Shown: in pieces, positions 23,997 through 30,773 of the stretch | Layout of the letters: every line of letters begins with the position of its first letter | How positions within the stretch are numbered: the first letter of the stretch is position 1 | Source of the DNA: Acidimicrobium ferrooxidans | Lineage (GTDB): Bacteria; Actinomycetota; Geothermincolia; Fen-727; Anoxymicrobiaceae | Direction of reading: 5' to 3' | Length of the DNA: 64,000 nt | Assembly (NCBI GenBank): GCA_020723485.1 | Contig: DYIU01000002.1 | Span: 95,543 to 159,542 of the forward strand | Made by a program: the position numbers and the translations under genes | Notes under the pieces: generated by a model | What the model saw: only the letters and a program-made list of their open reading frames with translations | Databases searched by the model: none | What the model was told of the DNA's origin: nothing

Positions 23997-24134
23997 ATCC
24001 CTTCATTCAGGCGAAATCCGACCCGGACGTACGAATAATCCCGGGATGACGGCATTTTTTCGACTATCACAAAGGAGGAACCGCTCTTCCGTTGAACGCT
24101 TTACAAAAGACAGTGCTGGAAGGGGGTGAAGTTC

Positions 24135-24410
24135 TTGACCAAGAAAGAGCTTGCAGATGAGGTGGCAAAGAAAGCGAACCTGAAGAAGAAGGACGCCGAA
24201 GCGGCGATCGACGTGATGCTGGATACCATCGCCAAGACCCTCAAGAAGGGCCAGAAGGTACAGCTCGTCGGCTTTGGGACCTTCGAGGTCCGGAAGAGGA
24301 AGGCCAGGACAGGGATCAACCCCCAGACCAAGGCCAAGATCAAGATCGCGGCCAGCAAGGCCCCGGCGTTCCGCCCGGGCAAGGCCCTGAAGGACACGAT
24401 AGCGAAATAG
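24135..24410 (+). CDS. HU-family DNA-binding protein
   Basis: 91 residues, the standard HU/IHF length. MTKKELADEVAKKANL opens the protein, and VGFGTFEVRKRKARTGINPQT is the DNA-binding arm with the intercalating-proline region. TTG24135 is preferred because GGGGG lies 8 nt upstream; the GTG nine bases earlier overlaps that ribosome-binding site. Nucleoid architecture protein acting as a dimer. A strong terminator follows. Confidence 0.95.
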   Translation: MTKKELADEVAKKANLKKKDAEAAIDVMLDTIAKTLKKGQKVQLVGFGTFEVRKRKARTGINPQTKAKIKIAASKAPAFRPGKALKDTIAK

Positions 24411-24430
24411 CAGTTGCACTTCCGTTGTTT

Positions 24431-24464
24431 GAGCCGGGGCCCTCGAGCCCCGGCTCATCCCTTT
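24431..24464 (+). terminator. terminator after HU gene
   Basis: GAGCCGGGGC (24431-24440) pairs exactly with GCCCCGGCTC (24447-24456) over a 6-nt loop and is followed by ATCCCTTT. It separates HU from tRNA-Pro. Confidence 0.85.
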
Positions 24465-24504
24465 CCTGCAAACCGTTACGGCGGATGGTAAAATATCGTT
24501 TGCG

Positions 24505-24583
24505 TCGGGACGTGGCGCAGTCAGGTTAGCGCACTGGTCTGGGGGACCAGGGGTCGCCGGTTCAAATCCGGCCGTCCCGACCA
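24505..24583 (+). tRNA. tRNA-Pro (anticodon GGG)
   Basis: A 79-nt tRNA with encoded CCA. Acceptor TCGGGAC pairs with GTCCCGA, the anticodon stem CTGGT/ACCAG brackets loop CTGGGGG, and the T-loop is GGTTCAAATCC. TAAAAT at 24489-24494 may be the -10. From the anticodon loop to the 3' end the sequence is repeated at 27021, and the T-arm/acceptor end also recurs at 24781 and 27262, marking a recombination hot spot. Confidence 0.97.
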
Positions 24584-24804
24584 TACACCAGCGAACACGT
24601 CACCGGCGGATTTAAACCGGCGACGGGGGGTGCCGGGGGGCGGTGGAGCCCCCCGATTTCCCTTTCTACCAGAGGGGGGAGCAGCAGGTGCGAGAGCGCC
24701 TGCGCTGAGGGGGGACGAGACAGTCCCCCCTCAGGGAGCGGAGCGAGGAGCGGACGCGACGAGCGCAGCGACGTCGCCGCGTTCAAATCCGGCCGTCCCG
24801 ACCA
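24538..24804 (+). repeat. tRNA-tailed structured repeat, copy A
   Basis: Starts in the tRNA-Pro anticodon loop and ends with a second copy of the tRNA T-arm/3' end (24781-24804). Between them is an inverted copy of the T-arm (about 24603-24624), a GGGGGGC/GCCCCCC hairpin (24635-24654) and a 12-bp perfect hairpin CTGAGGGGGGAC/GTCCCCCCTCAG (24705-24734). It matches copy B at 27021-27285 almost throughout. Confidence 0.9.
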
Positions 24805-24862
24805 TCGTTTATCCGTGTGGTTAAGCCGTTATTTGGTTCGGCGCCGAAAGGATATGTACAGA

Positions 24863-25147
24863 ATGAATCCGGGAGACATCAGAGAAGAATCCATAAAATA
24901 CCTGGTGGCCAATGGTGCCAAGCGAATATCATTCTTCGGCTCCTTCGTCAGGGGCGATGCGGGCCCCGGTAGCGACCTCGATGTCCTGGTCGAATTCTCT
25001 GAAAGGAAGAGCCTCCTTGAACTCGTCAGGCTGGAACGCGAGCTTTCCGATCGACTCGGCATGCCGGTGGATCTGCTGACAGCGAAGTCGATCAGTCCTC
25101 ACCTGATTGAGCGGATCAGGGATGACATGGAGGTAATTTACGGGTGA
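24863..25147 (+). CDS. mntA: MntA-type antitoxin nucleotidyltransferase
   Basis: 94 residues. GSFVRGDAGPGSDLD matches the minimal nucleotidyltransferase signature GSX10DXD (residues 26-40). MntA antitoxins AMPylate the tyrosine of the RX4HXY motif in HepT and neutralise it. ATG24863 is chosen because AAAGGA lies 10 nt upstream; ATG24854 is too close. The stop overlaps the hepT start by 4 nt. It sits at the left end of the tRNA-Pro island, in AT-richer DNA, consistent with horizontal gain. Confidence 0.9.
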   Translation: MNPGDIREESIKYLVANGAKRISFFGSFVRGDAGPGSDLDVLVEFSERKSLLELVRLERELSDRLGMPVDLLTAKSISPHLIERIRDDMEVIYG

Positions 25148-25473
25148 GGCGAGACGATTCTCTGTACCTCGAGCACATCCGGGAATCAATTGCGAAGATT
25201 GAGAAATATACGAGCGGGGTCGACGAAAACGGGTTCATGTCGGACGATAAACTCCAGGACGCCGTGATAAGGCAACTTCAGATCATCGGAGAGGCCGTAA
25301 AGAGGCTTTCGGATGATACTACTGCCAAGTATTCCGAAGTCGAATGGAAAGACATCGCTGGTATGCGCGACAAGCTTGTTCATGACTACTTCGGGGTGGA
25401 CATGGACGCCGTTTGGGATACCGTTGTCCAAGACCTGCCCAAACTAAAGCAAGCTTTATCAAGTGGCGCATGA
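25144..25473 (+). CDS. hepT: HepT-type toxin (HEPN ribonuclease)
   Basis: 109 residues, all-helical HEPN fold. The catalytic motif RX4HXY is intact at residues 75-82 (RDKLVHDY), so the toxin is predicted to be active as an RNase and modifiable at Tyr82 by MntA. GTG start overlaps the antitoxin gene by 4 nt, the usual coupled arrangement. Likely stabilises the island or acts in phage defence, as shown for related pairs. Confidence 0.92.
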   Translation: MRRDDSLYLEHIRESIAKIEKYTSGVDENGFMSDDKLQDAVIRQLQIIGEAVKRLSDDTTAKYSEVEWKDIAGMRDKLVHDYFGVDMDAVWDTVVQDLPKLKQALSSGA

Positions 25474-25593
25474 ACCGACGCGAGACGGAGTGCCGACCAC
25501 ACCGCCTACTCCTACAACGAGGCAAGCTGCTCAAATACTTCCAGTCAGAGACACCGGGTCAACCAAACAGGTAGAACTCAATGGGAGTCTACA

Positions 25594-26736
25594 GTGAGCG
25601 TTTCGATCTGGTCTTTAAAAGCTAAGAGGAAAATCCCTGTCCTGGCATTGATTGTTCTTGCAGTCCTGTGCACCTCGGGTTGCGGCAGCCCCAGCATAGG
25701 AAAACTGGAACAGATGCAGGTCTCGTGGACAGCTGATGTCGGCACGCTCGGTACCATAGTTGTTCATGGCACGTTTGTCCTGGCCAGCGGCACTACGACA
25801 GCCGGACGCAATGAGCTCTTCTGCTTCGAGGCTGAGTCCGGCAAGAAGCGATGGTCGTTTCTGGGTGTAAGCCAGTTCACTGAACAGATTGGGTTCTACG
25901 AAGAGAACGCTTGCGTCATAGACGAGAAAGACGAGCTCGTTCTCCTTGAGATCGAGACCGGCCGGGTTACCCGCACAGTGAATCTCAATTCAGACGAAAT
26001 CGATGCGAACGACGAATCCCCGTATTCGGAAGAGCCATCCACAATCACTGGATTTGCCATTTCCAAGAGTACCTGCGTATTCGGAACCCAAGGTGGGACA
26101 ATTGGAGCATATGACCTATCGGGTAACGCCAGGACATGGACTTCCTCAATCCCCTCGGAGTATCTGCTCAACTCATTCTCACCAATTATCGCGGGAGAGA
26201 CCGTGGTGGTCTTGAGCGATACTCCATGCGCGTTCAGCTTGGCCGACGGAAAACCAACATGGACATCAGGCATCAAATATCCCAAGGGAGCAATTCCGAT
26301 TGGAGACAGCGTGGCGGTCTGGAATGAAAACACACTCAGCAGAGTGCACCTGGTTAATGGCGAGACCGTTTTCAGCAGAAGTGTAAACGGAGAGCTTCAG
26401 CAATCATTCGCCCAGCACAACGAGGACATCTTCCTATTCGACAGGAAGCCGGGGCAAAAGGTCTCGGTTATCAAGATGAGTCTTAACAACGGAAAGACTG
26501 CCTGGGCCAGAGATTTCGACGAGCGGAATGTGAGCGGAGCGGCAACAGATGAAAAAGCCCTCTATTTCATTTCCAGCTCTGGCAATGTATACGCTGTGCG
26601 GCTTTCAGACGGTCAAGCGGTTGAGGGTTTCGAAATTGGAGCAAGAACAACGGCAATTACAGGCGTGGCAGCTTCGACGCAGGGTGTATTCACCGGTGGA
26701 AATCCAAAGATGTTCGCATTCAAACCAATCGATTGA
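25594..26736 (+). CDS. beta-propeller (PQQ-like repeat) lipoprotein
   Basis: 380 residues. A lipoprotein signal ends in CTSGC, so the mature protein should be surface-anchored. The rest shows repeated blades of the WD/PQQ-like type, with recurrent W-T/S, GxxxWxF and 'VxLxDGxxV' patterns (ESGKKRWSF, DGKPTWTSG, NGKTAWARDF, LSDGQAVEG). This resembles BamB/quinoprotein-like propellers, without evident PQQ-binding residues. It lies in the AT-richer island after MntA/HepT. Function unknown; it may be cargo of the island. Confidence 0.75.
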   Translation: MSVSIWSLKAKRKIPVLALIVLAVLCTSGCGSPSIGKLEQMQVSWTADVGTLGTIVVHGTFVLASGTTTAGRNELFCFEAESGKKRWSFLGVSQFTEQIGFYEENACVIDEKDELVLLEIETGRVTRTVNLNSDEIDANDESPYSEEPSTITGFAISKSTCVFGTQGGTIGAYDLSGNARTWTSSIPSEYLLNSFSPIIAGETVVVLSDTPCAFSLADGKPTWTSGIKYPKGAIPIGDSVAVWNENTLSRVHLVNGETVFSRSVNGELQQSFAQHNEDIFLFDRKPGQKVSVIKMSLNNGKTAWARDFDERNVSGAATDEKALYFISSSGNVYAVRLSDGQAVEGFEIGARTTAITGVAASTQGVFTGGNPKMFAFKPID

Positions 26737-27020
26737 AGTGTAGAGGACTCCCCGGACAGTCACATCGTCCTTCCAGGCCTGGTTGTCCATCAGATTCATG
26801 CGAATACACCAGTATCACCAAGTGCGGATTCGGAATGTACAGTGCTGTGGTAGACTTCTTTCTACATGTTTTCTACACGGACCTGACGCGCACCATGGTA
26901 GAGTAAGTGACACCAATGTTGAGTCACAAGCTCAATAAACCGCATTATACCGCCATTTATTGGCGAACCAACGGGTACCAAGAGAAACCATGAAACAGTA
27001 CCGGGCACTGCATGAGTCAA
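26737..27020. other. noncoding, AT-richer end of the island
   Basis: No ORF with credible codon usage or start is seen in these 284 bases. CATTTATTGGCGAACC and neighbouring T-rich runs show no clear promoter or tRNA-like fold. It joins the lipoprotein gene to repeat copy B. Confidence 0.6.
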
Positions 27021-27285
27021 TCTGGGGGACCAGGGGTCGCCGGTTCAAATCCGGCCGTCCCGACCATACACCAGCGAACACGTCACCGGCGGATTTGAAC
27101 CGGCGACGGGGGGTGCCGGGGGGCGGCAGAGCCCCCCGATTTCTTTTTCCACCAGAGGGGGGAGCAGCAGGTGCGCATGCGACGGCGCTGAGGGGGGACG
27201 AGACAGTCCCCCCTCAGGGAGCGGAGCGAGGAGCTTGCGACGAGCGCAGCAACGTCGCCGCGTTCAAATCCGGCCGTCCCGACCA
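27021..27285 (+). repeat. tRNA-tailed structured repeat, copy B (truncated tRNA-Pro)
   Basis: Begins in the anticodon loop of a tRNA-Pro copy lacking its 5' half (27021-27066), then repeats the inverted T-arm, both GC hairpins and the terminal T-arm copy (27262-27285). The first hairpin loop differs from copy A while its stem is kept, and the inverted T-arm here matches the tRNA T-arm better than in copy A. The 5'-less tRNA cannot be functional. Confidence 0.9.
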
Positions 27286-27387
27286 GCCAGGTCGGTCTTA
27301 CCCCTCGTATTTGGATGCCTACGGTAAGCCTTTCGCACTGTTGCGCCGCGCGTAACCGAATGCGGGGGCACCCGTTACAATAGTTAT

Positions 27388-30033: not shown

Positions 30034-30143
30034 TTTGGTACCGGTCGCACTGTGATAGACTGTCCCAGATGTCGTTCGGACCGAGCCCTGGCCGTACGTT
30101 GCGGCAGGTCTCCGGCGGGGCTCCAGGCGGTACGGGAGGGCAA

Positions 30144-30773
30144 TTGAAGTTTCTGAAGGAGAACCTGGCCAACATAGTCACGATGCTCCGGGTGTTCATG
30201 ACCCCCCTGTTCGTGGTCTTCATGGTGATGGGCAACACCAATACCGACTTCAGGTACGCCGCCCTCGCCGTCTTCGTGTTCGGGGCGGTCACCGACTGGG
30301 TCGACGGGCAGGTCGCGCGCAGGATGAACATAGTCTCCAAGTTCGGTATCATGGTCGACCCGCTTGCCGACCGCCTCTTCATCGGGGCCACCATCATCAC
30401 CCTCTACGCCATGAGGATGCTGCCGCTCCTGTTCCTCGTCGTCATCCTCGGCCGGGACCTCCTGATGGTCCTCGGGTACCCGTTCATCAGGAAGATAGAC
30501 CCGGAGAAGGTGGCCGTGCACATCACCGGCAAGCTCGCCACCGCGATACTCTTTGTGGCGCTGGGCTGCCTGATACTGGCGCCCGCCCCGCACGAGGGGA
30601 GCTATTTCGGGTTCAGCGGCTACGCATTCACGGACCCCGGCACCTGGCAGTTCTGGGGACTGTGGTTCTTCGTTATAGGCGCCGTCTTCTCGCTCATATC
30701 CGCGGGAATATACGTCTCGCGCGTCGTGGAGCTCTTGAAGGAAGAGGAAGCCGGGGCCGGTCAGGCGGCCTGA
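30144..30773 (+). CDS. CDP-alcohol phosphatidyltransferase (PgsA-like)
   Basis: 209 residues, about six TM segments. The family motif DGX2ARX8GX3DX3D is complete (DGQVARRMNIVSKFGIMVDP, then LAD). Catalyses transfer of a phosphatidyl group from CDP-diacylglycerol to an alcohol, probably glycerol phosphate (PG synthesis) or inositol phosphate; the motif does not separate them. TTG30144 is preferred, with GGGAGGG just upstream. 22 nt before the sugar-nucleotide transferase fusion on the same strand. Confidence 0.85.
   Translation: MKFLKENLANIVTMLRVFMTPLFVVFMVMGNTNTDFRYAALAVFVFGAVTDWVDGQVARRMNIVSKFGIMVDPLADRLFIGATIITLYAMRMLPLLFLVVILGRDLLMVLGYPFIRKIDPEKVAVHITGKLATAILFVALGCLILAPAPHEGSYFGFSGYAFTDPGTWQFWGLWFFVIGAVFSLISAGIYVSRVVELLKEEEAGAGQAA

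Follow-up and report, generated by a model that had tools for sequence, protein, structure and literature searches.

Bacteria of several phyla have, behind their tRNA genes, a previously uncurated family of structured elements of about 200 bp, and each element carries a direct copy, and usually also a mirror copy, of its own adjacent tRNA. Two of them, copies A and B, occur in the window, by which we mean the whole stretch of 64,000 nucleotides of the Acidimicrobium ferrooxidans contig DYIU01000002.1 that was analysed. It is fairly probable that they are non-autonomous mobile elements of about 180-250 bp, which enter tRNA and tmRNA genes at the T-loop and are recognised as a folded single strand. 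The copies, the gene-matched arms, the direct repeats, the empty sites, the compensatory changes and the cross-phylum spread were all observed directly. The copies constitute a ready comparative dataset for the fold of the element, and they raise the questions of which enzyme moves it and how its arms come to match the host tRNA. In many under-studied genomes, such structured elements lie unannotated in the 3' flanks of tRNA genes and can seed spurious antisense genes.

Both copies in the window belong to a tRNA-Pro(ggg) locus, which comprised the following features.

24506..24583, plus strand: intact tRNA-Pro(ggg), host gene of copy A (ARAGORN; Rfam RF00005)
24584..24804, plus strand: copy A, consisting of spacer, anti-T-arm, hairpin body and terminal tRNA 3' end (repeat search, own-genome search, relatives' tRNA-Pro loci)
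24602..24624, plus strand: anti-T-arm (left arm) of copy A, complementing the T-arm of the adjacent tRNA-Pro (inverted repeat; specificity matrix)
24635..24654, plus strand: GGGGGGC/GCCCCCC hairpin of copy A with variable loop (sequence, fold)
24705..24734, plus strand: perfect 12-bp hairpin of copy A, the equivalent of the covarying core hairpin (inverted repeat; core model match)
24781..24804, plus strand: tRNA-Pro 3' end repeated directly at the terminus of copy A (sequence GTTCAAATCCGGCCGTCCCGACCA)
24805..27020, no strand assigned: cargo, belonging to a decayed island of the integrase type at tRNA-Pro, with a left end (TCrT..TGGTTAAGCC) common to relatives' tRNA-Pro flanks
27021..27066, plus strand: attR of the island, a 46-nt tRNA-Pro 3' half that hosts copy B (100% match, tRNA positions 33-78)
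27067..27285, plus strand: copy B of the element (repeat search, own-genome search)
27085..27107, plus strand: anti-T-arm of copy B (inverted repeat)
27188..27217, plus strand: perfect 12-bp hairpin of copy B (inverted repeat)
27262..27285, plus strand: terminal tRNA 3' end of copy B (sequence GTTCAAATCCGGCCGTCCCGACCA)
30069..30773, plus strand: pgsA-like gene (named by reading the translation, no family search standing behind the name)

Aligned in register, 214 nt of copies A and B (24538-24751 and 27021-27234) showed 95% identity (repeat search). The features that an earlier note on this DNA had ascribed to both, namely the anti-T-arm, the GGGGGGC hairpin with a variable loop, the 12-bp hairpin and the terminal tRNA copy, were all recovered at the positions listed above. 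The same note had the repeats begin at tRNA-Pro 3' ends; this held for copy A, which follows the intact tRNA, and for copy B with the refinement that it follows the 46-nt half at the attR of the island. The anti-T-arms of A and B were complementary to the tRNA-Pro T-arm at 87% and 91%, respectively, and the loop of the GGGGGGC..GCCCCCC hairpin was read directly as GGTGGA in copy A and GGCAGA in copy B. The terminal tRNA copies were 24 nt long in each case. The folding of both copies was far stronger than that of dinucleotide shuffles (z = -6.3 each, 0/200), and a covariance model of the 73-nt core, devoid of any tRNA sequence (R1), matched the locus of copy A with 23.8 bits (L081, 1664-1744). 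On the minus strand, an open reading frame at 24003-24584 starts with MVGTAGFEPATPG, the antisense of the tRNA T-arm; this gene call is probably spurious. A further repeat (CCAGGTCGATCTTACCC..TTTGGATGCCTCC..GTAAGCC..) was located directly 3' of tRNA-Pro, tRNA-Ala(ggc) and tRNA-Met ends (window 27284-27360, L072 and L082).

Related bodies were present in the source genome behind the tRNA genes for Val, Lys, Arg, Ile, Ala, Thr, Leu and Gln, as well as behind tmRNA; in the own-genome searches a first query returned tmRNA and tRNA-Val(cac), and Lys, Arg and Ile came to light with a second. An antisense copy of the gene's own T-arm was found within 400 nt downstream of 15 of the 49 tRNA/tmRNA genes and upstream of none (shuffle expectation, 0.015). 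In a specificity matrix against all 49 genes, the best-matching gene was the adjacent one for 14 of these 15 anti-T-arms, a figure that includes one tie (Gln with Lys) and one lead of a single point (Pro 15, Phe 14); owing to such ties and narrow leads, and because T-loops are alike between tRNAs, the ranking is strong overall but not decisive locus by locus. Bodies that were 88-90% identical stood behind different genes with arms that differed, each following its gene. The body was 88% and the left arm 45% identical in a Ser/Thr pair (G000), and the corresponding values for a Thr/tmRNA pair (G001) were 89% and 43%. Thus, the description "tRNA-derived" in the earlier note, which had proposed a tRNA-derived mobile or RNA element, applies to the arms and fails for the conserved body, while its mobile or RNA guess holds. 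Direct copies of the tRNA 3' end were present at most other element loci too. The length of this direct repeat was variable, at many loci it ran through the spacer and the left arm into the body, and many loci closed with a fractional second unit. The anti-T-arm was not clear in several Omnitrophota and actinobacterial copies. On average, pairing of the left arm with the intact tRNA was no weaker than with the terminal copy (mean -27.0 versus -23.0 kcal/mol), and a closing stem formed by the left arm and the terminal copy is therefore not claimed as the main selected helix. A second body type was observed behind tRNA-Ala(ggc) (L072), tRNA-Asn (L058) and tRNA-Arg of G005 (L010) and at L008 (3343-3545); it starts approximately with GGGGTCACCRCGCR after the anti-T-arm, ends with GCGTGGGGT before the terminal tRNA copy, and is probably a distinct repeat family of the same layout.

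Compensatory changes preserved the stems in an alignment of 68 cores fitted to R1, which favours the model somewhat: the stems had 70 double-change cells versus 15 in shuffles, and the covariation score was 0.334 versus 0.105 +- 0.010 in shuffles, with sliding controls at 0.02-0.07. G-U pairs were more frequent in the stems than A-C (16 versus 5), so the tRNA-sense strand is favoured as the folding strand. The earlier note would have retreated to a simple local duplication had further copies and compensatory stem changes both been lacking; the latter are evident in this alignment, and the former were numerous and extended into other phyla. Within the class, 9 of 31 genomes contained copies matching R1 at E<=0.001; at E<=1e-5 such copies occurred in 10 of 296 genomes sampled from the same phylum and in 55 of 285 Omnitrophota genomes. 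The exact core pattern was met in 17 stretches, with named records from Omnitrophota, Patescibacteria/Berkelbacteria, Rokubacteria and Methylomirabilota; two of the 17, one from an acidobacterial record and one from Actinomycetospora, have the appearance of chance matches and were omitted.

A tRNA or tmRNA gene in the same orientation lay within 200 nt upstream of 37 of 66 distinct core matches. Others lay at tmRNA, at contig starts with T-arm sequence, in antisense orientation at a 5S rRNA gene, and at unrelated sites. The same tRNA placement was counted by hand for 19 of 25 core matches in a later, mainly Omnitrophota sample, many loci of which had an additional hairpin inside the terminal T-loop copy. 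In Omnitrophota loci (L286-L300), left arms often read GGAC-GA-GAACC, where the exact T-loop complement would have TC, and terminal copies were often GGTTCTA with an extra hairpin. A group I intron was also noted in a 23S rRNA gene of an Omnitrophota genome (L115, 3349-4059; Rfam). Presence of the element was patchy between related genomes and varied from tRNA to tRNA, and many copies were decayed. Two genomes (G067 and G068) held copies with fixed ends at unrelated sites. Those dispersed in G068 ran from AA-GCATCGGAATT.. to ..GGGGATATCTTG, usually with YTG on the left flank and with no target duplication seen; for one G068 insertion inside a tRNA-Glu-like D-arm, the rejoined flanks gave no detectable tRNA. 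No copies were found on phages or plasmids in IMG/VR (searched with the exact pattern) or in INPHARED and PLSDB (searched with one element as the query), and a phage or plasmid origin was rejected accordingly. Nothing relevant to the core sequence or to tRNA-linked repeats emerged from literature searches.

The conserved fold also bears on the main rival explanation, a role as RNA, which is compatible with mobility. The element would then be a host RNA element, co-transcribed with the tRNA and freed by tRNA 3' processing as an rtT-like RNA of about 200 nt, which would regulate or buffer tRNA maturation through the anti-T-arm by forming alternative hairpins, either between the tRNA T-arm and the anti-arm or between the anti-arm and the terminal copy. 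The orientation, identical to that of the tRNA in nearly all tRNA-linked cases, speaks for such a role, as do the compensatory changes, the average pairing of the left arm with the intact tRNA and the annotation of E. coli rtT RNA as processed from the tyrT transcript. However, this explanation does not readily accommodate the patchy presence between related genomes, varying by tRNA, the copies away from tRNA genes (antisense at 5S rRNA and at unrelated sites) or the many decayed copies, and we consider it unlikely.

Comparison with relatives' tRNA-Pro loci separated the element from the island on whose tRNA copies it sits. In four relatives (G002, G006, G009 and G010) the tRNA-Pro site was empty and a pgsA-like gene directly followed tRNA-Pro, whereas in the window a similar gene is 5.5 kb away. 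A second tRNA-Pro 3' half was located 1.5-8.4 kb downstream in G000, G001, G003 and G004, and the 8.4-kb interval of G001 encodes Phage_integrase, a DnaB-type helicase and a terminase; on these grounds a decayed island, bounded by attL and attR, is the reading given to the interval between A and B. The island cargo (24805..27020) includes a nucleotidyltransferase/HepT-like toxin-antitoxin pair (24857-25473) and a PQQ lipoprotein. In G003, G004 and G005 the island left end (TCrT..TGGTTAAGCC or close variants) came directly after tRNA-Pro with no element between them, and in the window it came after the terminal tRNA copy of A instead. Copy A is therefore a 221-bp insertion relative to these three genomes, comprising 197 nt and a 24-nt direct repeat of the tRNA 3' end. 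Copy B is the same insertion at the attR half, so that the element sits on both tRNA copies of the island; copy B may be a copy of A made by homologous exchange.

These data also address a second possibility, that the repeats are att-site debris left by phages or integrative elements whose tyrosine integrases use tRNA genes. The interval between A and B is such an island, with a 46-nt attL/attR of tRNA-Pro, a conserved left end and Phage_integrase in the G001 counterpart, and such sites typically show the tRNA 3' end as a direct repeat. Nevertheless, the element is a further 221-bp insertion superimposed on the island, the G003 and G004 islands start directly after the tRNA without it, it occurs behind many tRNAs where no island was seen, and a single body with compensatory changes accompanies many different att sequences. 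For the element itself this improbable reading is already contradicted. Simple local tandem duplication of the tRNA 3' region, with which the identity and proximity of A and B and the fractional second units agree, is highly implausible and is refuted as the sole explanation by the occurrence of the same body behind different tRNAs in several phyla.

Under the favoured reading, that of a mobile element, insertion would occur at the tRNA T-loop, which is placed as the insertion point because the common direct repeat takes in, as it does in E. coli rtT, at least the final 18-19 nt of the tRNA. The inserted unit would supply a duplicate of the last 18-36 nt of the host tRNA, and the tRNA gene would stay intact owing to this duplication of its 3' end. 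The left arm would usually be an inverted copy of the host T-arm, and arm, body and terminal copy could close into one branched hairpin; this folded strand may be what is recognised. The arms are presumably tailored at or after insertion, and the match of the left arm could arise by copying at insertion or by template switching that corrects an imperfect inverted repeat, as is known from quasipalindromes (PMC7202029, PMC8794818). Movement is likely to be ongoing or recent. Against mobility, direct repeats that reach into the body fit tandem duplication as well as insertion, the phage and plasmid collections gave no copies where a mobile element might be looked for, and several copies are without a clear anti-T-arm. 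No transposase or integrase gene was found inside any element. Among enzymes acting in trans, a single-strand (HUH/IS200-605-like) transposase would be the best candidate, a suggestion made solely from the end architecture of the dispersed copies. A Y1 search of seven element-bearing genomes (incomplete MAGs), including G068 and G010 with 7-10 copies, gave no match.

Several known systems resemble the family in part. REP/BIME repeats are likewise short, non-coding and palindromic, and a Y1 transposase (TnpA-REP, RAYT) is believed to mobilise them in trans (PMC3733652, PMC8266576, PMC3116915). The source genome has three RAYT-like Y1 transposase genes, two of which (L121 and L122) lie within about 1 kb downstream of repeat-bearing tRNA genes. 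A common sequence (CCGCAGGTTTGAATCACAATAATAATC..) with a mirror end was noted beside the C5 RAYT gene and also behind tRNA-Ile (L034 and L121). Despite the two suggestive neighbours, a Y1/RAYT enzyme was rejected as a demonstrated mobiliser, since the core was near none of the 33 Y1-transposase loci inspected, a cognate Y1 gene flanked by repeats being a REP/RAYT feature. The present elements differ further from REP in being several times longer, targeted to tRNA and equipped with arms that follow the host gene; the unit of about 200 nt has multiple hairpins, in contrast to the 20-40 nt REP hairpin tagged GTAG or CGTC. GACG, the complement of CGTC, precedes the terminal tRNA copy, but length and fold differ from REP. 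The G067 and G068 copies resemble IS200/IS605-derived miniature (palindrome-associated) elements in their subterminal hairpins and precise ends ending in CTTG, and those of G068 also in insertion after a YTG-like sequence with no target duplication seen, whereas the tRNA-type copies have tRNA 3' direct repeats and no fixed ends. Integrative elements with tyrosine integrases also duplicate and restore the tRNA 3' end; unlike these, the present element is devoid of an integrase and uses many tRNAs with one body. Integron attC core sites have the consensus RYYYAAC/GTTRRRY. An attC or cassette identity was rejected, as the T-loop GTTCRA lacks a purine at position 4. Each of the REP/RAYT, integron and integrase-att readings either conflicts with one or more of the features tested or accounts for the island alone.

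The closest counterpart is rtT of the E. coli tyrT operon (Rfam RtT), and the view of the earlier note that no named family has this layout was therefore not quite right. In rtT, the tRNA, spacer, anti-T-arm, hairpin body and direct tRNA 3' copy follow one another in the same way and in tandem; the anti-T-arm is degenerate (GGGGAAGGATGAGAAGCTTCGA, score 13), and the direct copy covers the last 19 nt of the tRNA (AATCCTTCCCCCACCACCA). R1 had no match at E<=10 in the two E. coli tyrT loci, and Rfam searches of the window and of 12 element loci gave no RtT match. The annotation of rtT is confined to tRNA-Tyr, in contrast to the present family, which occurs behind many tRNAs in several phyla. By layout, rtT looks like an element of the same kind, although R1 does not match it. 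We propose, tentatively, a widespread class of miniature mobile elements that use a T-arm-like hairpin to enter tRNA, tmRNA and 5S genes and that reconstruct both arms from each new target, so that one body can colonise many tRNA genes harmlessly; E. coli rtT may be a relic of the same kind. By this comparison rtT, a little-understood oddity of one E. coli operon, looks like a representative of a general element type found across phyla.
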